From Trichopria drosophilae (lineage: Eukaryota > Arthropoda > Insecta > Hymenoptera > Diapriidae): 64,000 nucleotides of DNA. The position numbers and the translations under genes are program-made. This document shows, piece by piece, positions 2,730 to 62,320 of the stretch. The DNA lies in the NCBI GenBank assembly GCA_030407085.1, contig CM059584.1, positions 125,211,001-125,275,000 of the forward strand, written 5' to 3'. The notes under the pieces are model-generated. The model searched no databases and was not told the origin of the DNA. It saw only the letters and a list, made by a program, of their open reading frames with translations. Within the stretch, counting starts at the first letter, position 1. Each line of letters starts with the position of its first letter.

Positions 2730-5700
2730 CAGTAAATGAAACAATATGATTCTCTTATATTGTACCAAATATAAGGCATTATATATAATTCATTGAACAA
2801 CTTTTTAAAATCAGAAAGATTACTTTTTTAACATCGATACATTATGATTTCCTACGTGGATGTACATACGTTATTAAAAAAAAAAAAAATTAATGAAACC
2901 GAAAATGCCCCAATAAATATTTCTTGAGTTATTAAAACAACTTATTTTTAAATAAAGAATGTCGTTGATATCCTCGATGCAATAAATAAAACTGACATAA
3001 ATTGTTTCATTTAAAAATTAAAAATGTCTAATTTTCCTTTCTCTGAAAAAATAATTTTGAAATTATTCTCTCCGGCCATTTAATTCTTAAGTGCTTCCTC
3101 AAGCGTTTGCAATTATTGGGTGTCAACGACAGCTGCAACTATGTTTCTTTTATATAAGAGCAGAAAGTTCTTTTGAGAATTGAGGCTTATTAAATGTCCA
3201 GCACTTTGTATACTTGTTTAGTCTCTTATAAATAGTTTCAACATATTTTATAAATCCTTATACGGCAATACGATAGAAAGAGCCTGTTAAAGACTCTTGT
3301 TGCTTATTTTATGTAAACACATTGATGAGTAAGTCCAATTTTTTCAATCATTTAAATTAATTTTAAATGTTATGTTATCTTCTCCCACACTATGATGAAC
3401 AATAAGTTATTACACATTTGTCTCATTAAATGTATTAAATATTACTTTGAAACGGTATCAGAGATAAAGAGAACTTATTTTTCTGAATTCCTGAATTGCT
3501 TTTACCAATGGCAATGTTTAGCTCTTCATTCTATGAAATATGGATCTAAAGCTAGAATAAACTTTGCTGTTTTTTGACGAAGTACATCGCAGGCGGATGG
3601 AATATCGACCGGAAATTGAGTATTGGGTATAAAAAGTGCATTTTTACGACTTGTTTGGCATTCGAGTTTAGAATGCAAGTATCTACCAACCTCGTTTGCA
3701 ACCTCATGAAACTATTATAGAATTTTTAACTTAAGGTATCGTTTTCCTCGAAAACCCGGTTTTAAAGCCGAGAACCTTTTTGTCCTATATTTTAGTTAAT
3801 TATGTGACGGGAAAATGTATTGAGTAGTTATTTACATTTTCTTTATCAACATTTTCACGTTATCCTCTGAATTGTTTCTGAAAAAGTTACTTAATTAGTT
3901 CTTGCATTCTTTCAATTATTGCCAGAGTCTAAACCATGAAAAATGTTGAATTATCCTCTTTAGAAAAGTTCTTATTAGATACATTTTTTTCTCTACCTTT
4001 CTGTAAAACATAATCGAAACTTAGTAATAGTTTTAGTTGTAATACGTTTCAAATGTTAATGTGTTAAAATATGTAATTTCTCCTCTTATTTCCACTTTTC
4101 TTACCTCTTTCAAATCACAATTTTAATATTTTTGTTTTTGCAAAAATTAATTTGTTAATCATTGTAATCATACTTAGTTACTACTTTTATATATCATGCA
4201 TTATAATAGAGTTTATAATTCCATTACTTATTAGTTTCGCAAAACATAATTGTATCATTGATCATTTTCAGGTTCGAATTTCGAAAAAATATTTCATTCA
4301 AAAGGATTTATAGATATAAATTAATACATAATTGAATTCAGGAATCGAAACAACCATTTTTTACGATCAATTACTTACGCGTTATAAATATGACATTAGT
4401 ATAAGCACATTTTAATGAGTAGGTATAATTTAGATACAATTTCGAATACAGGTTAAGTTTAAGGCAAATTTGATTTAATATATATATACAGACCCATGAA
4501 ATTACGTAAAAGAAAACTGCATCGCATTAAATGTAATTTCATATTTGATATAAGCTCTAATTAGTATAGTTCGTAATATGAAAATTAGTATTAAGTACCT
4601 ATGAAATTAAATTAATTTCTTCTTCTTAGATCTCATCTTATAATTTTATTTTAAAAAAGTTTTCTTTTTCAAAGTAACCCGGAATAATTTCAATTCCTTT
4701 TATCCTGACTTAATAGCAAAAATTTGAAAAATCAAAATGGTGGTTGAATTATGGCTAAAACATTTTGAAAATTCAGTTCGGTACCATTGAAAACACATAA
4801 AATTGAGTATTCATAAGAATTCTTTTATAACGGCGACGAATGTTAGGTGATTATATTAAAATATTTGAGGTTAACGTTTTTGAAACGTGTAAAAATAATG
4901 TACTTTCAAATATTTTAGCTACTCATTTTGAACTTTGGATTTATATCAAACGAATCACTATTTTACGCTAAATATACTCAAAATAATTGAGTAAACATTT
5001 AAAATTATTTTGGATTAAGTATTTAATTAGTTCCAAGATTCTTCTTTACATACTTAACATATAAATAAGTGAACCTATAAGTAAAATAATCCCAACTTAG
5101 TCTGAACATTCACGTCACATTAAATTAAATCTTTGAATATTGTACTTCCGGTTCCTTCATTAATCAAACCTGAAACATTATTTTATTTATGAAACTAGTA
5201 TACTTGTAAAAAATATCCCATATAGGTCATCCAGATAATTACTAGGTTGGAAAACTTCCTGGTTAAGCTCACCTTAGTACAAAAGTACTTAATGACATAC
5301 ACCGATAGCAAACATTACGTAGAGTTCAAAAAGGAACCATGAAGAAATTGCAGAAATTATTTTAACATAGTAGAATTAACAATATGAAAGGTATAATTAA
5401 TATGTCAGGTTATGTACAAACTATTTAAATACCAGAGAATACTAAATGGAACAATTTTATAGTTCTATTTACTATGAAAATAGTTATTAAACTATTTTTT
5501 GTATCAAAGCGTTTTACTATTATAAAATGGTTGCATTAATTATTTTATTTTCTCTATGTAATTTTATAATATTATGTTTATATATAATTTATTCCGTCTA
5601 GAGAAAACGAAGTAACTTAATCAAGTATTTTTCTCGATTGAAAACTATCAACTGTCGATGTTTTTTCCGAATATTTATAATGAAATTCACATAAATTAAT

Positions 5701-19173: not shown

Positions 19174-19675
19174 ACCCCCCCCCCCACCCCCCCCCCCCCC
19201 CACCCCCCCCCCCCCCCACCCCCCCCCCCCCCCACCCCCCCCCCCCCCCACCCCCCCCCCCCCCCACCCCCCCCCCCCCCCACCCCCCCCCCCCCCCACC
19301 CCCCCCCCCCCCCACCCCCCCCCCCCCCCACCCCCCCCCCCCCCCACCCCCCCCCCCCCCCACCCCCCCCCCCCCCCACCCCCCCCCCCCCCCACCCCCC
19401 CCCCCCCCCACCCCCCCCCCCCCCCACCCCCCCCCCCCCCCACCCCCCCCCCCCCCCACCCCCCCCCCCCCCCACCCCCCCCCCCCCCCACCCCCCCCCC
19501 CCCCCACCCCCCCCCCCCCCCACCCCCCCCCCCCCCCACCCCCCCCCCCCCCCACCCCCCCCCCCCCCCACCCCCCCCCCCCCCCACCCCCCCCCCCCCC
19601 CACCCCCCCCCCCCCCCACCCCCCCCCCCCCCCACCCCCCCCCCCCCCCACCCCCCCCCCCCCCCACCCCCCCCA
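19174..19675. repeat. 16-bp minisatellite: A followed by 15 C, about 31 units
   Basis: From 19186 to 19666 every sixteenth base is A and every other base is C, without a single exception, giving 30 full units. A shortened 12-base spacing opens the array (19174 to 19186) and a 9-base spacing closes it (19666 to 19675). The other strand is runs of 15 G separated by single T. All six frames are nearly free of stops, which creates false Pro/Thr/His-rich and Gly/Trp/Val-rich open frames of up to 218 codons; none is a gene. It lies just beyond the stop codon of the small - strand gene that ends at 19802. Confidence 0.97.
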
Positions 19676-50269: not shown

Positions 50270-52484
50270 TGTTAAATAATTAAAATAAATGAATTTATAT
50301 CTTGGTTTTGACGGCATATTTACAAGGGGTAATTAAAGTAATAAATAATCCTTTAGTGTTTGCGATGGAACCACTATTTGTATATCAAAATATGATTTTT
50401 TATATATGTACATAAATAGATAGCCAGAAAGATGTGAAATCATCGCTACCGGCAATCCCGATTTTACTTACTGTATATATTTAATTTATAGGAAACGATC
50501 GTATGTGGGTTCTGTTTCCCTCTAGCGACAACAATTGTAATCAAATGCCTATTTCTTAAAGATTAACGAACTTTTGTTAAAAATAGGTTTCGTCCCAGGA
50601 TCCCGTTTGGACTCCATCCCTGCCCTAGACATATTAGAAACAAAATTCGTTCTAAAAAATTACTAAGTTGAGATTTTAAATAACATTAGTAAGGGAGAAA
50701 CCTACTAAAGCTATTTTAGTACATATCGACTAATATGGTAAACGAGATATCGTTTTACCCAGTGCGTATATGCATTATTTTCCAGTTTTAAAATGCGAAT
50801 AAGTTTTGCCGAAGCATAATAACTCTGGTTAAGATTCAACATTGTCATTTAATGGTGACAGTTATGTCATCAGCAAAAGGCGAATATTTTTTTTTAAATC
50901 AACATTGCCAAAAAAAACAACAGTAAGTAGATAACAACGCACATAAATATATAATTTAAACAATAAAAATAGTTTTGCTTGTAATATTAACGTTCGGAAT
51001 ATTTCTACTTGAAATCAGGCAGATGTGATATCTCCAAATTGTTTTTCATGATATACCAAAAAAGACATTACAAAATTTACATGGAGATAAAGAGATACTT
51101 CCCCGATATTACACGAACGAAAAGTTTTGCTATTTTCTAAATTTTGTATATAATCGTTAGTAATATTGTATTATTAATTTTAAACGTATACAATCATTGA
51201 ACGTGATGCGTAAACAAAATTTATACTTTTCTACAAAACTGCATTGTTCAAAATTAGCTGCATTCAAAATCTCATTTCTTGCAAAGAAAATTCAGTAATT
51301 TAAAGCTTAGAATGCATATACCACCAAAAAGATTATCCATTAGATTATAAATCTCATAATTGAGTGAACTGCAACTGCGTCGACTTATTTATTTATTACC
51401 GCGTTTTATCTCGATATTTTCGATAAACAAGTGTTATTGATTATTTTATGCCACGTTAAATATGGACAGAAATTTTCTCTTGGCATTATAAATTTGTATA
51501 ATTCATAATGCCTTGATCAAAACTCTTTGTTTAACACAAGTACACGTTTGATAATTTAGATGAAATAATAATTAGGAAGACGGTTAAATTATCAACATAA
51601 AAATACTTTCTGAAGTTTGGAACAAAGTGTACTGGAAACTGTATTACGTATTAATTGGAATTTAGTTACTATTTACATGAAGTTTAGATCTGGTGAAAAC
51701 CATTTACTTGGTATTTACACCTGAACAGAAATTTCCGCTACGTTATACTCCGTTATTCAACAACGAAACGATTAAACAAATGAACATACTATGTATTGGT
51801 TTACATATTAAGATAATGATTAGGGATTTAATACAATACTAGTATCCAATTTACTAAAAACTAGATATATTAAAACTAGACATTGGGTGACACTGTCAAA
51901 AATGTATGCATAATTTATTCATTCTTTCACTCATTTTACATTTCGGTTTCATACTTAATGAACATATTATCCAATATATCAAGTAATTAGTCTTTTAGTA
52001 CTTATAACAATTTAAAATTACATTGCTAATAGTAAGCACTATTATCGTTACATTCGTTAAACGAAAACCAGCATGTACAAAATATGCAGCAGCATGATAT
52101 ATGGATTATACTGCCCAGTTATCTGAATAACCCTGTACATTTTCTGTGTTTCATACGAAAATCACAACTAGTAAATAGCACAAGCATTAGAATACCGTAC
52201 TTCTTTCAAACTTATTTTATTTATTTACATAAACAGCAAGATAATCAGTTTTTTTTATTATTTCTGCAATTTTTAATCTCTGAAAAGATTATTATGCATA
52301 CATCTTAATCCGTACAAGTTTTTACACAATTAATCTTACAAGTCGTTTTTACGTAAAGTAGTGACAGTATTATACATTTAAATTACATGAATTTAGGACC
52401 CGTAGAGAATTTTGCAGAGTCAGTTGATACATTAATTATAGATGTAATTAATCCATTAACATTCGAATCATCTATACTTTTTGT
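50270..52484. other. AT-rich sequence, no gene accepted
   Basis: No supported gene. It contains the right copy of a 31-bp direct repeat (50791-50821, partner at 48518-48548). The + strand frame 52084-52308 has no domain or splice support. Confidence 0.4.
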
Positions 52485-54471
52485 AGAACATTGGACACTT
52501 GATACACGCAAGACTTGATATAGACGCTGCCATTATTTCTCTTACGGTCGCTTGGGATAACCCTTTATTATTCAGTAATTAGATATGATAAATTGTATAT
52601 TTACAATGAATAATTTATAATTTATATGTATGATTTATAATAAATATATTTAACCCATTACGCCCACGAGGTCACTTTTTTCAGAGTTCTCCAGATGGGA
52701 TAAATTTGATCCTCAAAAATGCTTAAAAACATGAAATTGTTAGATTTTTATCGACCTTTCATATCCAAAAATTAGATACAAAAAAACATATTATTACTAA
52801 AAAATGAGTTTAAATGTAAAATATACAAAATTGTTGGCGGTTTCATCCGACAGTGGACAAAATTAACTTCAACTTCCTTCTACCTTATAAATTAGTCTCA
52901 AGATGATTCCATAATGGGCAGTTGATACGAAACGAAGTGACAAAAAAAATTTTTACATTTAAACCCATTTTTTAGTAATAATTTTTTTTAATAATGGATA
53001 CCACCATTAATAAGATCGATAAACAATCTATCAATGACATGTATTCAAAAATTGTTGAGGCCCAAATTAATCCTATCTAGAGAACTCTCAATGAAGTGGT
53101 GACGAAAGTGTACGCGTAGGCGTTAGTGGATTAAATAAGCAATTTCTTCTGAGTCTGTCGATAGTCTAAAAACAAAAAAGTAACTGACTCCAGTGGATCG
53201 TTAATCCAATACTATTCAATAAAATTTGTTGAGGCTATATGAAACTAACAACGTAATTTGGAATCCCGGATTGCCTAATGAGGACTGCTACTACTTATTA
53301 TAGTAACGCGTGTATTTCGGAACGCAATCAATTCATTGAATTCAAAAGAAATTTTAAAATTAAAGCAAATTAAAATGCCGGAAGTACATTAAAGGGAATT
53401 TCAATTGATCGACCTATCGAGGTAAAAATAAAAGTTGCTATTATTCCGTTTAAAAAATGGCTTTAAAATTCTTAAATTCCCGTATATATGCAAGCTTCCC
53501 GATTTAATCAAATAAATTTTTTTCTATTAGTAAACATAACGTTACTTATTTTCACATAATTTTATTTTTAATATAATATATTATATAAAATAATATTCCC
53601 GAAAATCTGCTAAACTTGTTCAGTTACGTGGTACTTGTCAATAACACCCAAAGGTTAGTATGATATCATTTTCATCTCCTATTTTTATTTCATTTTATTT
53701 GTTTTCGTCTCTAGTTTGGGTGTCTCGAAATTTGTATTTTTAAATTTACTATACTATCCGTTTAATATTGAACCAGATATACATTAAATTTAAACTCGAT
53801 TTTAACAATGATTTATATGGCTTCCTTAATTTTTAGAATATTCAAATTTGTTATTGGGATATTCGTTTTATCGGCTTCTAGCGATATATTGGTTTGCAAA
53901 GTTACTTATAGAGGGAAGAAAGCCGAGAGCATCTTTCAATGATTATTACTGATCCGTGACCACGTGTTCTTTTCCAATTCGAAAAATCATCTATATAAGT
54001 TCAAAATCGATGACAATTGATTTCATTTTGTAGACGAGTCAAGATCAATATTATGTGTTTTATCACTTTATTTTTTAAATCTAATAACGGTATCAACACA
54101 GCCATGCATTTACTTTTAGTAAAATCTCTTCCGGTTAAGAATATAATTTCTCTTCGTTAGTAAAGTGAAATTGCAAAGTGGATACTTATAAATTGAACTC
54201 GAAGGATACACAATCAATCTAAGCATACTGCATTTGAAAGATTTATCAATTATATTTTGTAAATTATTAAAGGTATAGACAATATCTTGGACAAACGAAC
54301 GTCTTCCTAGCAAACCATTCTTCACTCATTGGGTAATCTAATTCCACTATAAAGTCATGTTTTAAAAAATGAAGTGAACAATTTCCTGATAAGGAATATT
54401 AACCGATGTTTTTCATAAAAATCATTACGATAATAATGCATTATTGATGTTAAAAATCAATTATTTAAATA
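52485..54471. repeat. 1,987-bp direct repeat, left copy
   Basis: Identical in length to, and without a visible difference from, 59242-61228 (constant offset of 6,757 bases along its whole length). It abuts the 3' end of the LINE at 54472. It contains a piggyBac-like MITE (52654-53130), otherwise AT-rich unique-looking sequence, and a 69-codon open frame (54116-54325, - strand) that recurs in the second copy. The simplest reading is a very long target-site duplication made when the LINE inserted. Confidence 0.95.
52654..53130. mobile_element. piggyBac-like MITE (left-copy instance)
   Basis: Flanked by TTAA (52650-52653 and 53131-53134). Ends CCCATTACGCCCACGAGGT and, reversed, TCCACTAACGCCTACGCGT pair imperfectly. 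Inner blocks such as CAGAGTTCTCCAGAT / ATCTAGAGAACTCTC (with mismatches) and TTACTAAAAAATGAGTTTAA / TTAAACCCATTTTTTAGTAA also pair. It is an old insertion, duplicated along with its flanks at 59411-59887. Confidence 0.75.
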
Positions 54472-54628
54472 TAGTAGTAGTATAAGTTTATTAACCCGTA
54501 TTTGAAATATAAAGAAATTTCTTGAGGGTAGAGTGCACAGTTGCTCAATATATACAGAAACAGGTACGCTACATTCACGCTTCCGGTATGATACACATAA
54601 AAAGAGAAAACAAAATACAATAAAGAAG

Positions 54629-54631
<3 letters not shown>

Positions 54632-54671
<40 letters not shown>
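54632..54671. repeat. (AT)n microsatellite in LINE 3' untranslated region
   Basis: About 19 uninterrupted AT dinucleotides, ending in TATGTATGTA. It lies between the ORF2 stop and the LINE 3' end. An Ile/Tyr-rich open frame on the - strand is produced by it and is not a gene. Confidence 0.9.
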
Positions 54672-54678
<7 letters not shown>

Positions 54679-55033
54679 AACACGCTCTTAATTACTAACG
54701 GAACGCACTATACAGTTATCGGCATATAACGACAGGGACACAAAACTAGGCACTTTAATAAAGATCGAACGAAGCATTGTACATTTCATTAACGCGATAT
54801 CTACATTTGTGTCGCCAAACAACATTACATTAACATACAACTCTTACATATACCGATAATGACTTTGAACCTTTATAGAATACGGATAAAGGATACAGCT
54901 CATAAAACACGACTTTTCTTTCATAAACAACACTTACAATGTTCGCTGACACCATATGAAACTTTTTTACAGATATAAAATTATTTTGCTTTAAACGCAC
55001 TGCCCGGCAGCAACCGCAAATTCGCAGGCCAAC

Positions 55034-58000
55034 TTAGAAGTCCATTACAAATTGTCTCCTGGCAAAGCACGCGCTGACGAAACCAAAAAGGACCTTCAGC
55101 GCACGAGGGTCTGCAGAATGGATCAGAACGGCCATAACATTCTCGTCGGAACAGTTGATCATTATGCTGTTACGACGGAGTCTAGATCTTGAGGGGGCAG
55201 AAAGGGGACAGTCCCACAGGATGTGAGTTAATGTCTCCCTTTCACCCGTATTGCATATCGAACACGGCTCATTCGGGTTGTAGGCGTAGTGAGTACTACC
55301 GACGCAGAGCGAACGCGAGAATATAGTGGCCGTTCTCATCTGTATTTTTAGGCGCAAATGGGAAAGCTGGCAGCGTTCAGGAGCCAGAGTAGCCATTCCG
55401 TCGGAATATTGCCTAAATATTGGGAACTGGATCGATTCCGATAAGAAATAGCGCTGAAGGTCGCGGTTACGCTGAAGAATGGCAAAGGTTTCGCAGGTTG
55501 ACATTATACTAGACTCCCAGTTAGTTGCCGAGAAATCCTCCCATAGACCATCACAGCTCGGCGAGCCGAGGACCGACCTCAGCTGCACAAGCCAGTTCAT
55601 TAGCATATCTGTCGTCCCACCAGAGCTGAGCTCATGCAGCCTGACTAGCCCCGCGCGCGCCAAGCTATTTGTTGGTTGACGCAAATACTTTAGTACTAAA
55701 TTTAACGCTCTACGCACTATTTCGACGGATATTGGATAGAGCCCCAATTCCAGACGCAGAAGATAAGGCGGCGTCGATTTAGGGAGCTTAAGCCATTTCT
55801 TAAAAAAGTCAACCTGTACCGATTCTAAAGAGTGAAGATGGCCGAGGGCCCAACAGGGAGCAGCATACAGCAGGGTAGATAATATGGAGGCCCCATAAAG
55901 CTTGAGGGCAGCACTGGTTGAATCACATCCAGCTGAAGCCATTATAGCCAAGATAGACGCCGTAGCTTGGCGAGTCTTGGCTATAGCATTTTCAGTTGCC
56001 TTCAATCCACTCGCCGATGAGGAGACGATTGTACCTAGATATGGGTAAGTGGTCGCAACTTCCACCTGCTGATTGCCATAATAAAAATTTCTTGAAGAGG
56101 CGTCAAGAGGACCACCTCTTCTGAACACAACGATTTTTGTCTTAGCGATGTTTACAACTAGGCCATTAAGGCTACAATAAGACTCGAGCGCCCTAAGTTT
56201 AGCTCTTAAGTCAGCAGGTGAATAAGCGAAAATCGCCAAGTCATCGGCGAAGAGGAGCATCATGAGGTCGAGCGTAGTTGTGAAGTCAATGCCCCTCAAG
56301 CCCAGGCCCCGACAGTATGTTACGATGTCGGAGATATATAAAATAAAGAGCAGAGGGCTCAAGATTTCTCCCTGAAGAACCCCCTCGGTCACCCTAACTC
56401 GATCCGTAGAGCCAGATGGGCACACGATAGAAGATTCAGCTGAGTCATAGAAGGCCTTAAGCACCCTAACCATTTTGGCACTAATCCCAATGCTATATAA
56501 CTTGTGCCAGAGTTTTGCATGGGGTATAGAATCGAACGCCCTGCGGAAGTCCACAAAAAGGACGTAACACTTAGAGGCTTTTTTCCTGAGCTGGATCTGG
56601 ACAGCTGCATTTAATATGAAAATGTTGTCCTCCGCAGAGCGTCCCCTTCTAAAACCCGCTTGTTCATCTGGGAGTATGTCACGCTGGGAAAGCCAGTTTT
56701 CGAGTCTCACCATAAGCACCTGCGTGAACAATTTCGTGAACGCATTGGTTATGGCGATCGCACGATAATTCTCTGGGTCGGTTCGGTTGCCCTTCTTGAA
56801 GAGCATGAAGAGATTAGCTACCATCCACCCCTCAGGAGGCAGTTCGTTGGTTAAAATTGAATTGAATAACTCCAAAACATAGGAGAACCACTCGCCCGTG
56901 AGTAGCTTCCACGATTCTGCCGGAATACCGTCAGGACCTACAGCTTTACCGGATTTTAATCTCTTCATGCTCTCCCTCAGCTCCTGCGGCAGAATTGGGC
57001 CGTCAAGGTCGTTGTCTAGAGCCCCATAGAATGTTAGTGGCAATGATAGCCTTGGAGGGTAGAGGAGCTCCAGGTGCCCGGACCAGGCCTCCAAGGGCAC
57101 AGGCGAACTACCTAAAGGAGCCCGCCTGTGTCTCCGAACCTCGGACCAGAAACCCTTGGCGTCCCTCACCCCAGCAAAGGCATCAGCTGTACGCGAGGCA
57201 TATAGTTTTTTTGCCACAACCGTTGCGAGTTTAAACTTCTTCTTGGCAGCGAGGTAAGAGTGCTCATAGGAAATCTCGTAGTTATTCGACCGAACGAGAT
57301 GCAGGGCTCTGTTCATAGCTTTTCTGGCGACCTTACAGGACTCGTCGTACCAACGAGGTATAGAGCTCAATGAGTTACTTTTCCCGCCGGAGTAAGTGGA
57401 CAATTTTACTAGGCCTTCCTGCACGAGAAGGCTGAGTAAACCCGAGCAAAAAGTATCGAGAGACGGAGTTTGCGTTGCGTGATTTAAAAAAAGTGCATAT
57501 GGGTTGACTTCGCGTAAACGCTTGACGAGTTTTGCCTCCCCTTCAGGGGACCACGACACTATGTACCTCGGTGCTACGTTAGACGAAACATGAGACATAG
57601 GCGGAGGATTTATACATGTAAGGGACAACGTGGCGACTGCCGGAAAATGGTCTGAGCCTCCACTCTCAGGGCCTATAAAAAAGTCGTTCACCAAATATAA
57701 ATGATTTGCTGAGACCCAGACCAAATCGACAATGCTACGCCCCTTGACATCCAAAAACGTGAATTGCGCGGGTGAATCACTAAGCGAACGACCGTTAAGT
57801 AACACGAAGTTGTTATCGAACATAAAGCTGTATAAACATTTACCGCGAACATTATAACGGCTATCGCGAGTTCGCCTCGCAGGTACAAATTGGGTCTCCT
57901 CGAATAAATTCGGGAAGTCGCATTCGTAGTCGAGGTCACCGGTCCATGAATTGAAGTCTCCTCCCAAAATAATCATACTATCAGGAAATTTAACCGAAAA

Positions 58001-58396
58001 GGAATCAAGAACAAGCTGGAGCGAAGAAAGCAACGACGTGAGATCAGAATTTGGCGGGAAATAGAACGAACCTTGAATTAGAGAAATCGGAAATGATTTA
58101 ATTAGAAGAAAAAGCCAGTGCGAGGAGGATTCAATCAGCACCGGTGACCCCGACGACGGCACATAAGTTGACAAGCCACCGCCAAATCTTCCTCTGGAAC
58201 CTTCACGCGAGGCTGGGACTGAGAAGTTCACTGTACCAAGGTCCGCAGGAAGTGTAGATGGTTCTGGACACCATGTCTCGGTGAAATTCATGATCCTGCC
58301 TTGTGGAAATTTAGACGCCATGGAGTAATTGTGGGGACCGTGAATATTCCAAAAGGCAACAGAAAGCAGAAGGTCCTGCCGACTTGATGGAGCCAC
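55034..58396 (-). CDS. LINE ORF2: endonuclease and reverse transcriptase
   Basis: 1,120 aa with no internal stops. Residues about 10-255 are an APE/exonuclease-endonuclease-phosphatase domain: WNIHG at 16-20, the catalytic-Glu motif ETW at 40-42, GGDFN at 145-149 and the terminal SDHFP at 248-252. It nicks the target DNA. Residues about 480-790 are the reverse transcriptase: KAVGPDGIP, NYRAIAI, GFRRGRS, VDFRRAFD at 615-622, GEILSPLLF and the active-site FADD at 716-719, followed by YLGT. The C-terminus carries CSIC ... HILWDC, a CCHC-like zinc-binding motif used by this group. The intact frame suggests a recently active source. It uses its own RNA for target-primed reverse transcription. Short overlapping frames on both strands here are shadows. 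Confidence 0.95.
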   Translation of the reverse strand: MAPSSRQDLLLSVAFWNIHGPHNYSMASKFPQGRIMNFTETWCPEPSTLPADLGTVNFSVPASREGSRGRFGGGLSTYVPSSGSPVLIESSSHWLFLLIKSFPISLIQGSFYFPPNSDLTSLLSSLQLVLDSFSVKFPDSMIILGGDFNSWTGDLDYECDFPNLFEETQFVPARRTRDSRYNVRGKCLYSFMFDNNFVLLNGRSLSDSPAQFTFLDVKGRSIVDLVWVSANHLYLVNDFFIGPESGGSDHFPAVATLSLTCINPPPMSHVSSNVAPRYIVSWSPEGEAKLVKRLREVNPYALFLNHATQTPSLDTFCSGLLSLLVQEGLVKLSTYSGGKSNSLSSIPRWYDESCKVARKAMNRALHLVRSNNYEISYEHSYLAAKKKFKLATVVAKKLYASRTADAFAGVRDAKGFWSEVRRHRRAPLGSSPVPLEAWSGHLELLYPPRLSLPLTFYGALDNDLDGPILPQELRESMKRLKSGKAVGPDGIPAESWKLLTGEWFSYVLELFNSILTNELPPEGWMVANLFMLFKKGNRTDPENYRAIAITNAFTKLFTQVLMVRLENWLSQRDILPDEQAGFRRGRSAEDNIFILNAAVQIQLRKKASKCYVLFVDFRRAFDSIPHAKLWHKLYSIGISAKMVRVLKAFYDSAESSIVCPSGSTDRVRVTEGVLQGEILSPLLFILYISDIVTYCRGLGLRGIDFTTTLDLMMLLFADDLAIFAYSPADLRAKLRALESYCSLNGLVVNIAKTKIVVFRRGGPLDASSRNFYYGNQQVEVATTYPYLGTIVSSSASGLKATENAIAKTRQATASILAIMASAGCDSTSAALKLYGASILSTLLYAAPCWALGHLHSLESVQVDFFKKWLKLPKSTPPYLLRLELGLYPISVEIVRRALNLVLKYLRQPTNSLARAGLVRLHELSSGGTTDMLMNWLVQLRSVLGSPSCDGLWEDFSATNWESSIMSTCETFAILQRNRDLQRYFLSESIQFPIFRQYSDGMATLAPERCQLSHLRLKIQMRTATIFSRSLCVGSTHYAYNPNEPCSICNTGERETLTHILWDCPLSAPSRSRLRRNSIMINCSDENVMAVLIHSADPRALKVLFGFVSACFARRQFVMDF

Positions 58397-58512
58397 TATA
58401 GGAAGAGTTCTGCGTGCTGATGATGCCGGCGGAGAGGGTTGAGAGCCAAGCCGATGTATGATGGAGTGTTGTGAGACTCGGCAGCCCCTTGAGCTGGTAA
58501 ACGGGGCTGCAT

Positions 58513-59268
58513 CTAGGCGTTTTTTTGAAGAGTGCGGTGGGCGTATGAGCGGGATGTGCTAGGAGCTAACGAAATCGGTTGAGAAGATGGTAAGTCAATT
58601 TCCATACCAGTTGATGGTGATGGCACTTCCGGTATAAAGGAGTCAGCAGCATCCGACCAAACATACCAAACGCCATCGACTCGCACCTTCTGGTACCTGC
58701 GCTCAACCCTTTTTCGGTCTGCTTTGGACTTCTTCACTAGTTGCCTGGCGTGGAAGTCGATACGGCGTTCCCTGGCCGTAGAGTCAGCGTCAATAAAAAT
58801 GTCCTTGCCCAAGAGGAGGCGTTTCTTCTGGGCCATGATGTGAAGCTTGGACCGATAGGACAGTAGTTCAACGATGACAATAGGAGGGTCATTCCGTATG
58901 AGGAAGGCTGTATCGACCACATTGGAAATTCCAAAAACCTCATCAAAAAACTTCTCAACACAGGCAGTTGGATCACCCGAAATTTTCAGTCCGCGAATTT
59001 TCAGATTCTTCTTCTTGATTAACTTGCTCTGGTGCTCCAATTCAGTGGTCAGGTGGGATATCTGGGCATCTTTTTCCTCTAGTTGCAATTTTAACGAGGT
59101 TACCTCACTAAGGACCTCAGTCCTAAGCTCTGAAATCGCGTCCAGGCTCGATTTAGTCGCCGCGTCTACTTTAGCGTCGATTTTGGCTGACAGAGCATTT
59201 ATTATGGTCTCTTGTAAGTCCTTGAGCTTCTTGAGTCCTTGAGAACATTGGACACTTGATACACGCAA
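58513..59268 (-). CDS. LINE ORF1, N-terminally truncated RNA-binding protein
   Basis: The open frame encodes 251 aa, but the first nine (MRVSSVQCS) come from the flanking direct repeat; the element itself begins at Gln10. Residues about 10-90 are coiled-coil, with Leu/Glu/Lys heptads. Residues about 90-150 look like an RRM-type fold (LKIRGLKI ... CVEKFFDEVF ... PPIVIVELL). A basic C-terminal domain follows, with Arg/Lys-rich helices and a VDGVWYVW strand. This order resembles ORF1 proteins of the L1 type, which form trimers and bind element RNA. It stops 116 bases before the ORF2 start. The real start codon and part of the N-terminus are missing, so this copy probably lacks a promoter. Confidence 0.85.
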   Translation of the reverse strand: MRVSSVQCSQGLKKLKDLQETIINALSAKIDAKVDAATKSSLDAISELRTEVLSEVTSLKLQLEEKDAQISHLTTELEHQSKLIKKKNLKIRGLKISGDPTACVEKFFDEVFGISNVVDTAFLIRNDPPIVIVELLSYRSKLHIMAQKKRLLLGKDIFIDADSTARERRIDFHARQLVKKSKADRKRVERRYQKVRVDGVWYVWSDAADSFIPEVPSPSTGMEIDLPSSQPISLAPSTSRSYAHRTLQKNA

Positions 59269-61228
59269 GACTTGATATAGACGCTGCCATTATTTCTCTT
59301 ACGGTCGCTTGGGATAACCCTTTATTATTCAGTAATTAGATATGATAAATTGTATATTTACAATGAATAATTTATAATTTATATGTATGATTTATAATAA
59401 ATATATTTAACCCATTACGCCCACGAGGTCACTTTTTTCAGAGTTCTCCAGATGGGATAAATTTGATCCTCAAAAATGCTTAAAAACATGAAATTGTTAG
59501 ATTTTTATCGACCTTTCATATCCAAAAATTAGATACAAAAAAACATATTATTACTAAAAAATGAGTTTAAATGTAAAATATACAAAATTGTTGGCGGTTT
59601 CATCCGACAGTGGACAAAATTAACTTCAACTTCCTTCTACCTTATAAATTAGTCTCAAGATGATTCCATAATGGGCAGTTGATACGAAACGAAGTGACAA
59701 AAAAAATTTTTACATTTAAACCCATTTTTTAGTAATAATTTTTTTTAATAATGGATACCACCATTAATAAGATCGATAAACAATCTATCAATGACATGTA
59801 TTCAAAAATTGTTGAGGCCCAAATTAATCCTATCTAGAGAACTCTCAATGAAGTGGTGACGAAAGTGTACGCGTAGGCGTTAGTGGATTAAATAAGCAAT
59901 TTCTTCTGAGTCTGTCGATAGTCTAAAAACAAAAAAGTAACTGACTCCAGTGGATCGTTAATCCAATACTATTCAATAAAATTTGTTGAGGCTATATGAA
60001 ACTAACAACGTAATTTGGAATCCCGGATTGCCTAATGAGGACTGCTACTACTTATTATAGTAACGCGTGTATTTCGGAACGCAATCAATTCATTGAATTC
60101 AAAAGAAATTTTAAAATTAAAGCAAATTAAAATGCCGGAAGTACATTAAAGGGAATTTCAATTGATCGACCTATCGAGGTAAAAATAAAAGTTGCTATTA
60201 TTCCGTTTAAAAAATGGCTTTAAAATTCTTAAATTCCCGTATATATGCAAGCTTCCCGATTTAATCAAATAAATTTTTTTCTATTAGTAAACATAACGTT
60301 ACTTATTTTCACATAATTTTATTTTTAATATAATATATTATATAAAATAATATTCCCGAAAATCTGCTAAACTTGTTCAGTTACGTGGTACTTGTCAATA
60401 ACACCCAAAGGTTAGTATGATATCATTTTCATCTCCTATTTTTATTTCATTTTATTTGTTTTCGTCTCTAGTTTGGGTGTCTCGAAATTTGTATTTTTAA
60501 ATTTACTATACTATCCGTTTAATATTGAACCAGATATACATTAAATTTAAACTCGATTTTAACAATGATTTATATGGCTTCCTTAATTTTTAGAATATTC
60601 AAATTTGTTATTGGGATATTCGTTTTATCGGCTTCTAGCGATATATTGGTTTGCAAAGTTACTTATAGAGGGAAGAAAGCCGAGAGCATCTTTCAATGAT
60701 TATTACTGATCCGTGACCACGTGTTCTTTTCCAATTCGAAAAATCATCTATATAAGTTCAAAATCGATGACAATTGATTTCATTTTGTAGACGAGTCAAG
60801 ATCAATATTATGTGTTTTATCACTTTATTTTTTAAATCTAATAACGGTATCAACACAGCCATGCATTTACTTTTAGTAAAATCTCTTCCGGTTAAGAATA
60901 TAATTTCTCTTCGTTAGTAAAGTGAAATTGCAAAGTGGATACTTATAAATTGAACTCGAAGGATACACAATCAATCTAAGCATACTGCATTTGAAAGATT
61001 TATCAATTATATTTTGTAAATTATTAAAGGTATAGACAATATCTTGGACAAACGAACGTCTTCCTAGCAAACCATTCTTCACTCATTGGGTAATCTAATT
61101 CCACTATAAAGTCATGTTTTAAAAAATGAAGTGAACAATTTCCTGATAAGGAATATTAACCGATGTTTTTCATAAAAATCATTACGATAATAATGCATTA
61201 TTGATGTTAAAAATCAATTATTTAAATA
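59242..61228. repeat. 1,987-bp direct repeat, right copy
   Basis: Second copy of 52485-54471, starting right at the truncated 5' end of the LINE. The two junctions share the bases AGAACATTGG at the start and TTTAAATA at the end. Outside the repeat the flanks differ at once (T versus G before it, TAG versus CTT after it). It contains the duplicated MITE and a copy of the same 69-codon frame (60873-61082). Confidence 0.95.
59411..59887. mobile_element. piggyBac-like MITE (right-copy instance)
   Basis: The same element as at 52654-53130, copied together with its surroundings; TTAA is on both sides (59407-59410 and 59888-59891). Confidence 0.75.
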
Positions 61229-62320
61229 CTTCATTAAATCTGTCTCAATCTGTACAATAAGTATTTTGGTATATTAATTACCATCAGATAGAATCTGAAT
61301 ATAAAAGTAAAATTAATAATTTTGATGTTAAACCCTGCAACAGATTATAAACTCAGACGCGGTAATTATCATATTTTTCAGCTTCTCGATTTTTTGTATA
61401 GCCGTAACTTTCATCAAAGTTCGCAATATATACTTAATTTTTTTTATTATATAATTATTTGTTTATTGTGTATAAGGACCGCGATACCAAGCATTTAATT
61501 TAGTTCAAAATATTAATATTAATTATGACGATACTTTGCCGTAAAGATTAATTGTGATGCAATCCATGTTAATTTGATTTCCCTAGACTTTTTTATTACA
61601 CTGAACATTTGTTCAGGTGTATATTACAGATTCCAATCAAAATAATTGCAACAATTAATTATTAAAATGTATATAAATATAAAATTTAAAATTTGTAAAA
61701 TATTTTTAATATAATTGCATATTAATTTTTCATGGACAGGTTTGCTTATTATCTCACCAATGAACAATATGTATATGAATATTTATCTTAGTTGCGTGGT
61801 AACTAAAAAATCAAATATTTAAACTCGCTATTTATTTAAACGACCATTTAAGTTACTGATAAGATTTAGCAGCTGTCATTTATTTTAACATGATATACAT
61901 TACTCGCGCCATTTAATAGTAACTGGAAGAAAAATTGCCTATATTATATTTGCCTAACTAGTGCTGGAATGATTTTGGTTTCGTAGTGATCTTTTGTTTA
62001 AGAACAAGACAAAATGTAACCATCCTCAAGCTAATGCAAAACCAACCAATTTCAATGTTGAATATGAAGGTTTAGATTTATCTACTGAAAATATTGGAAT
62101 TTTTTTTGCAGAAGAAGTCTAACCATTTCTATAATATCCGCAATATTTAATACAGTAGTAAGAAAATCGTTGTTTGTTTGACCCAGAGAGGAACTCGGTT
62201 TAGCAAAACTAGAATGGTTTATAGTCAGCCAGTTTCTGGATAGTAATCTGTATTTAAAACTGCCCAGTAATTAATGTCTCGTTTTAGACAGTAACTAGAA
62301 TGTTATACAATAAAGTAACA
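61229..62320. other. AT-rich unique sequence, no gene accepted
   Basis: No supported gene or repeat. It is the DNA to the right of the duplicated segment and should adjoin 52485-54471 directly in a chromosome that lacks the LINE. Confidence 0.4.

Follow-up and report, generated by a model that had tools for sequence, protein, structure and literature searches.

What kind of event leaves a long interspersed nuclear element (LINE) between two identical direct repeats of 1,987 bp? This question is raised by a locus of Trichopria drosophilae (Hymenoptera; Diapriidae) that lies in the 64,000-nucleotide stretch analysed here, called the window (GenBank assembly GCA_030407085.1, contig CM059584.1, positions 125,211,001 to 125,275,000 of the forward strand; coordinates below are those of the window). 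Our reading is that the LINE was inserted by target-primed reverse transcription and that the repeats would be its target-site duplication (TSD), to which we assign a probability of roughly 0.87. Several relatives of this LINE carry shorter versions of the same footprint, and the duplication is therefore probably genuine and a consequence of the jump.

The repeats are located as follows.
52485 to 54471, no strand: left copy of the putative TSD
59242 to 61228, no strand: right copy, placed by the repeat comparison and the genome search

The earlier note had described a constant offset of 6,757 without any difference in the parts it compared, and this was borne out over the full length: 1,987 of 1,987 bases are identical and the ends are abrupt, with the first mismatches at 52484 and 54472 and identity directly at chance level outside them. 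When the whole genome was searched (936 Mb in 509 contigs, the window being on contig C3), the full 1,987-bp segment was found only at these two sites; the other matches listed belong to a dispersed repeat at roughly repeat positions 157-655 and are mostly about 70-80% identical. The member of this dispersed family, present in both copies (52641-53139 and 59398-59896), is internally inverted and resembles a miniature inverted-repeat transposable element. The G+C content of the duplicated segment is 28.5% and its sole open reading frame (ORF) of at least 60 codons has 69 codons, and the segment therefore resembles ordinary non-coding DNA.

Between the repeats, the following features were found.
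54472 to 59228, minus strand: 5'-truncated LINE, with its 3' end at 54472 and its truncation within ORF1 at 59228
54472 to 54486, minus strand: LINE 3' tail, TAGTAGTAGTATAAG on the plus strand; the number of TAG repeats varies among other copies
55034 to 58396, minus strand: ORF2, open over 1,120 codons, with an endonuclease (PF14529) and a reverse transcriptase (PF00078)
58513 to 59228, minus strand: remainder of ORF1, its N-terminal part lost by truncation
59229 to 59241, no strand: 5'-junction filler TCTTGAGTCCTTG, 13 bases that other copies do not have at that place

Both Pfam domains of ORF2 scored above the cut-off, and ORF2 matches the L1 ORF2 and R2 proteins in the PDB. The element is a LINE with an AP-type endonuclease in that it has an ORF with endonuclease and reverse transcriptase, a 3' end shared among copies, variable 5' truncation and insertions flanked by TSDs. 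A protein comparison, in which the 7,993 candidates with the most shared words were scored, gave a LINE of the ant Trachymyrmex cornetzi (LOC108764858, P0001), which has the same two Pfam domains and is 57% identical over 73% of ORF2. Position 54472 is the normal 3' end of the family: with the terminal 600 bases as the query, many matches start at query base 1-5 (the 40 best of 192 candidates scored). In the search with the LINE, for which 33 of 1,020 candidates were scored, 20 alignments end at query base 4757, corresponding to 59228, and 12 of these 20 begin at query base 1-5; other copies continue beyond 59228 for about 0.83 kb in family sequence that has no counterpart in the window copy. 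The window copy is therefore truncated inside ORF1, whose frame is still open in the 5' part of a copy on contig C5, read alone. The repeats had been thought to abut the LINE exactly at both ends, which holds at the 3' tail but not at the 5' side, where the 13-base filler intervenes; the filler was partly re-copied from the adjacent LINE, since GTCCTTGAG at 59218-59226 reappears across the junction. The window LINE is a young retrotransposon copy: in an alignment of 23 copies covering about 2.0 kb towards the 3' end, it differs by 2 bases from each of L011, L012 and L015 and by 3 from L010. Because it has barely diverged from these near relatives, the identity of the two TSD copies is unsurprising.

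If the repeats result from the insertion, other copies of the family are the place to look for the same footprint. Both LINE ends were checked for direct repeats in 40 copies, namely the window copy and 39 others, which were the best-scoring copies and not a random sample (outside the sample are, among others, C4:29335560, C2:199738071, C2:15183734, C2:110755804, C2:118711868, C2:42042103, C4:43959828, C2:122977798, C2:137972998 and C33). A TSD was readable in 32 of the 40, with a median of 15 bp. In 26 of the 32 the length was 7-27 bp; TSDs of 7-8 bp (L023, L026 and L033) may be due to chance in A+T-rich DNA, that of L033 having been taken as 7 bp after about 7.5 kb of its 3' flank was searched, and the TSD of L031 (about 27 bp) sits in an AT repeat. 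The other six are long:
L024/L044: TSD of 59 bp, 5' filler of 15 bases
L025/L057: TSD of 82 bp if exact, or about 95 bp with mismatches
L082/L081: TSD of 189 bp with 3 mismatches, no evident 5' filler
L011/L041: TSD of 510 bp with 0 mismatches, 5' filler of 6 bases
L032/L049: TSD of 779 bp with 6 mismatches, 5' filler of 17 bases
window copy: TSD of 1,987 bp with 0 mismatches, 5' filler of 13 bases

The five long TSDs outside the window touch the LINE tail on one side and lie 0-17 bases from the LINE 5' end on the other, and a TSD well above 100 bp that reaches both LINE ends was found in 4 of the 32 copies (1,987, 779, 510 and 189 bp). With the window copy left out, as it had been chosen for its repeat, TSDs exceeded 50 bp in 5/31 copies, 100 bp in 3/31 and 500 bp in 2/31. 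Long TSDs were seen in 6 of 24 copies of at least 3.5 kb and in 0 of 8 shorter ones, a difference that was not significant (rank test, p 0.16; some lengths are approximate). The suggestion in the earlier note that the repeat is an extreme TSD is thus supported by the family 3' end at 54472, by the 5' truncation of about 0.83 kb and by TSDs of 59, 82, 189, 510 and 779 bp that are placed alike.

No TSD could be read in the remaining copies for several reasons. L013 and L084 lie in satellite arrays (for L013, 3.6 kb were searched), and L086 and L069/L070 have no usable 3' end. For L019 and L036, no TSD was present in about 7.5 kb of 3' flank, and the 5' flanks matched only themselves; for L027 and L015, none was resolved in about 7.5 kb of 3' flank, and the 5' flanks are repetitive, that of L015 recurring at 8 other places among the matches scored. 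On the 5' side of L027 (L052:101-300), the LINE adjoins a stretch that is 99-100% identical at 28 other places among 40 scored, a young high-copy element. Two further peculiarities of the family were noted: in one full-length LINE copy, a full-length U6 small nuclear RNA copy (L039:953-1059, minus strand, with L010; RF00026, 117.9 bits) is fused to the LINE 5' end within a 15-bp TSD, presumably by template switching, and two copies on C1 (113680895-113685139, plus strand, and 113687876-113692606, minus strand) are oppositely oriented, with less than 3 kb between them by their listed coordinates.

The two ends of the duplicated segment mark the sites at which the target would have been opened.
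54464 to 54472, plus strand: first nick, TTTAAATA^; the unoccupied site continues with CTTCATTA, now at 61229; rank 0.999
52484 to 52485, minus strand: far (second) break, AATGTTCT^ACAAAAAG; rank 0.07 in its own segment, no target-like score

The ranks come from a matrix of the 16 bases around the first nick in 19 copies, consisting of 18 copies with short TSDs and the one with 59 bp. The five longest were excluded, as were L074, whose typed TSD was not found by the script, and L014, L023, L026, L031, L035, L072 and L076. Each rank is the position of a site among all positions of that copy's own duplicated segment. For the five longest TSDs, the first nick ranked at 0.999 (window), 0.971, 0.89, 0.90 and 0.76, and therefore the first step used the family's normal kind of target. 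The far breaks of these copies, scored on the other strand, ranked at 0.07, 0.165, 0.456, 0.468 and 0.031, and the second nick of the short-TSD copies had a mean rank of 0.65. Nothing in these values points to a far break chosen by the same specificity. Given the weak motif and the five cases scored, the ranks are supportive but do not amount to proof.

Several points weigh against an insertion with a 1,987-bp TSD. The evidence comes from assembled sequence. Long TSDs are a minority in the family, 26 of the 32 readable ones being of ordinary length, and 8 of the 40 copies gave no reading. The motif of the target is weak, and the long cases scored with it number five. Furthermore, the 779-bp TSD contains 6 differences, more than expected from its LINE (L032): of 2,002 sites in that LINE, 1 is privately changed, and its nearest relative differs from it by 5. 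These six differences are spread over the segment, perhaps through error-prone synthesis of the duplicated stretch and perhaps by chance.

The most probable alternative, rejected in its simple form as unlikely, is an assembly artefact in which a LINE-bearing and a LINE-free haplotype were joined into a false duplication. The exact identity of the two copies would suit such an error, as would the fact that the locus is known from an assembly. However, by reasoning, an insertion with a short TSD together with an empty allele would not give copies that meet the LINE on both sides 1,987 bases apart, and four other loci of the family with TSDs of 82-779 bp have the same anatomy. The copies of two TSDs have diverged from each other (6/779 and 3/189). 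Neither collapse nor doubling in the assembly accounts for this, and therefore those two at least are not assembly echoes. Nor did the genome search reveal the segment a third time, for example on an unplaced haplotig.

A slightly smaller chance is given to a host cause, namely a deficiency in nucleotide excision repair (NER) due to which LINEs of this host would generally make long TSDs. In its favor, the median TSD of L1 in human cells rises to 1,495 bp when NER is lost, according to an excerpt of the source (PMC5223499). In contrast, the median TSD of the family itself is 15 bp, and another young LINE of this genome, poly(A)-tailed and found through RVT_1, served as a control in which 14 of 17 copies had TSDs of 11-15 bp. 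No TSD was found in the other 3 copies, where one beyond about 1.5 kb is possible, and no long TSD was seen among the 17. The difference in long TSDs between the two LINE families was not significant (Fisher's test, p 0.097 for >30 bp, 0.22 for >100 bp and 0.33 for >500 bp). The control set comprised 17 of 18 close copies, C2:18520218, which has an inverted piece, being left out, and L116 and L117 in it are not independent. These two copies on C6 share the same 3' flank and have different 5' ends, and therefore one site was probably duplicated or rearranged. Two other candidate controls were dropped: a sister family of about 75% identity (L087), whose copy is broken up by foreign DNA, and a third LINE family, for which only about 8 close copies were listed and the loci could not be cut out. 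Furthermore, the genome encodes an XPA_C domain (88.9 bits) and Rad10/ERCC1 domains (99.5 and 46 bits), and therefore long TSDs are not due to these repair genes being simply lost (XPC and XPD were not searched).

Less probable again is an endonuclease-independent insertion, in which the LINE patched a pre-existing break and the repair made the duplication. A far break that is not a LINE target site and the filler at the 5' junction would fit such a patch, but the 3' junction has the normal family tail at a high-scoring target, and the first nicks of the other long cases also score highly (0.76-0.97). A tandem duplication that came before the LINE, with the LINE hitting precisely the boundary between the two copies, would leave a sequence alike except for a short TSD, and was rejected as very improbable: no separate short TSD surrounds the window LINE, both flanks being directly the 1,987-bp repeat, and the exact hit on the junction would be a coincidence repeated at the other long-TSD loci. 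Finally, the idea that the 1,987-bp copies are terminal repeats like those of a long terminal repeat (LTR) retrotransposon, suggested by a reverse-transcriptase gene between direct repeats, can practically be dismissed, given that the full segment was found at this one locus and nowhere else, that no second LINE copy was seen between such flanks, many having unrelated DNA around them, and that the segment itself contains a dispersed repeat, as host DNA does.

The repeat and its position, the family 3' end, the truncation, the filler, the recurrence within the family and the regular first nick are shown by the sequence. For insertion by target-primed reverse transcription with a long TSD, we infer the following order of steps and manner of capturing the far end. 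The LINE endonuclease would nick the plus strand after TTTAAATA, that is, after 54471, at an ordinary target of the family, and the free 3' end would serve as primer for complementary DNA (cDNA), copied from the LINE RNA starting in its repeated 3' tail. This copying would then stop or jump inside ORF1, and a few bases would be added or re-copied, which would give the short filler. The end of the cDNA would be joined to target sequence that starts 1,987 bases behind the nick, versus the usual 15 or so. Three routes are conceivable for this joining: (i) the other strand is nicked at a distance, with fill-in afterwards, (ii) the cDNA is joined to a broken end of the sister chromatid, or (iii) the cDNA end invades the target duplex and copies back through the site. 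All three routes leave identical sequence, and we give route (i) about as much weight as routes (ii) and (iii) together. Widely separated nicks, the mechanism put forward in the earlier note, thus stay as one of three fitting routes, but the far break is unlike an endonuclease site.

A further reading, less likely than not, regards the family as one with an intrinsically loose second-strand step. The first nick would be a preferred one, whereas the far end might be any distant break or be reached by strand invasion, so that about one in ten insertions would duplicate 100 bp to 2 kb of host DNA in a living lineage in which a neighbouring LINE family keeps to 11-15 bp. Whatever its cause, a natural family whose TSDs range from 7 to 1,987 bp provides cases of a regular first nick with an irregular far break, and thereby sets the two steps apart. 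By the available portion of a review (PMC2881922), the way LINEs deal with the second strand, by cutting or by capture, is still open, and in most cases the manner of second-strand cleavage is not known.

Elsewhere in the window, two inverted repeat pairs were observed at 48558-49205/49640-50264 (94% identical) and at 44633-44911/45571-45873 (86% identical). In addition, exactly 500 bases at 19175-19674 consist of 31.2 copies of a perfect 16-base unit, CCCCCCCCCCCACCCC. This array is odd for a window of 31% G+C and is possibly an assembly or sequencing oddity.

Among known systems, the rotifer element R9 is a non-LTR retrotransposon reportedly named for its exceptionally long TSD, as in a title cited by PMC2861651. 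R9 is specific to ribosomal DNA, and its TSD is said to have a fixed length of about 126 bp, whereas the TSDs described here vary from 7 to 1,987 bp. A study of human and chimpanzee insertions collected, by the part of its text available, only TSDs of 5-30 bp (PMC2912911), and longer ones were therefore invisible there. An extract of a survey of 1,019 humans describes TSDs of mobile elements as mostly 10-20 bp (PMC12350158). Among the top-listed open-licence papers, no account of kilobase TSDs in an insect LINE family turned up. The closest likeness is to human L1, for which excerpts of PMC5223499 describe de novo insertions in NER-deficient cells with TSDs from 5 bp to 5.3 kb (median given above); its authors suggest that an unrelated nick at a distance is captured. 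In these excerpts, TSDs above 100 bp never exceed 10% of events in HeLa cells and make up 3/9 in complemented cells; the share in the present family, 3/31 with the window copy left out, is close to that in HeLa cells. In both systems, the LINE inserted at a normal endonuclease site and the TSDs can reach hundreds to thousands of bases. However, the human insertions were recovered in cultured cells, mostly repair-deficient as far as the excerpts go, whereas those described here belong to a family with a median TSD of 15 bp and were read from the assembled genome of an animal, in which XPA and ERCC1 domains are encoded. L1-bridged tandem duplications in tumours, as presented in the accessible part of PMC7058536, are similar in that an L1 lies at the junction of a direct duplication with an endonuclease motif at the 3' breakpoint, and they are modelled there as invasion of a break on the sister chromatid by the cDNA; they differ in being somatic and megabase-sized (22.6 Mb in the example). 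The window insertion is therefore a natural case of a known kind of event, since kilobase TSDs have been recorded for L1 in cultured human cells, and it indicates that LINE insertion can make kilobase duplications of host DNA in a natural genome, beyond repair-deficient cultured cells or tumours.

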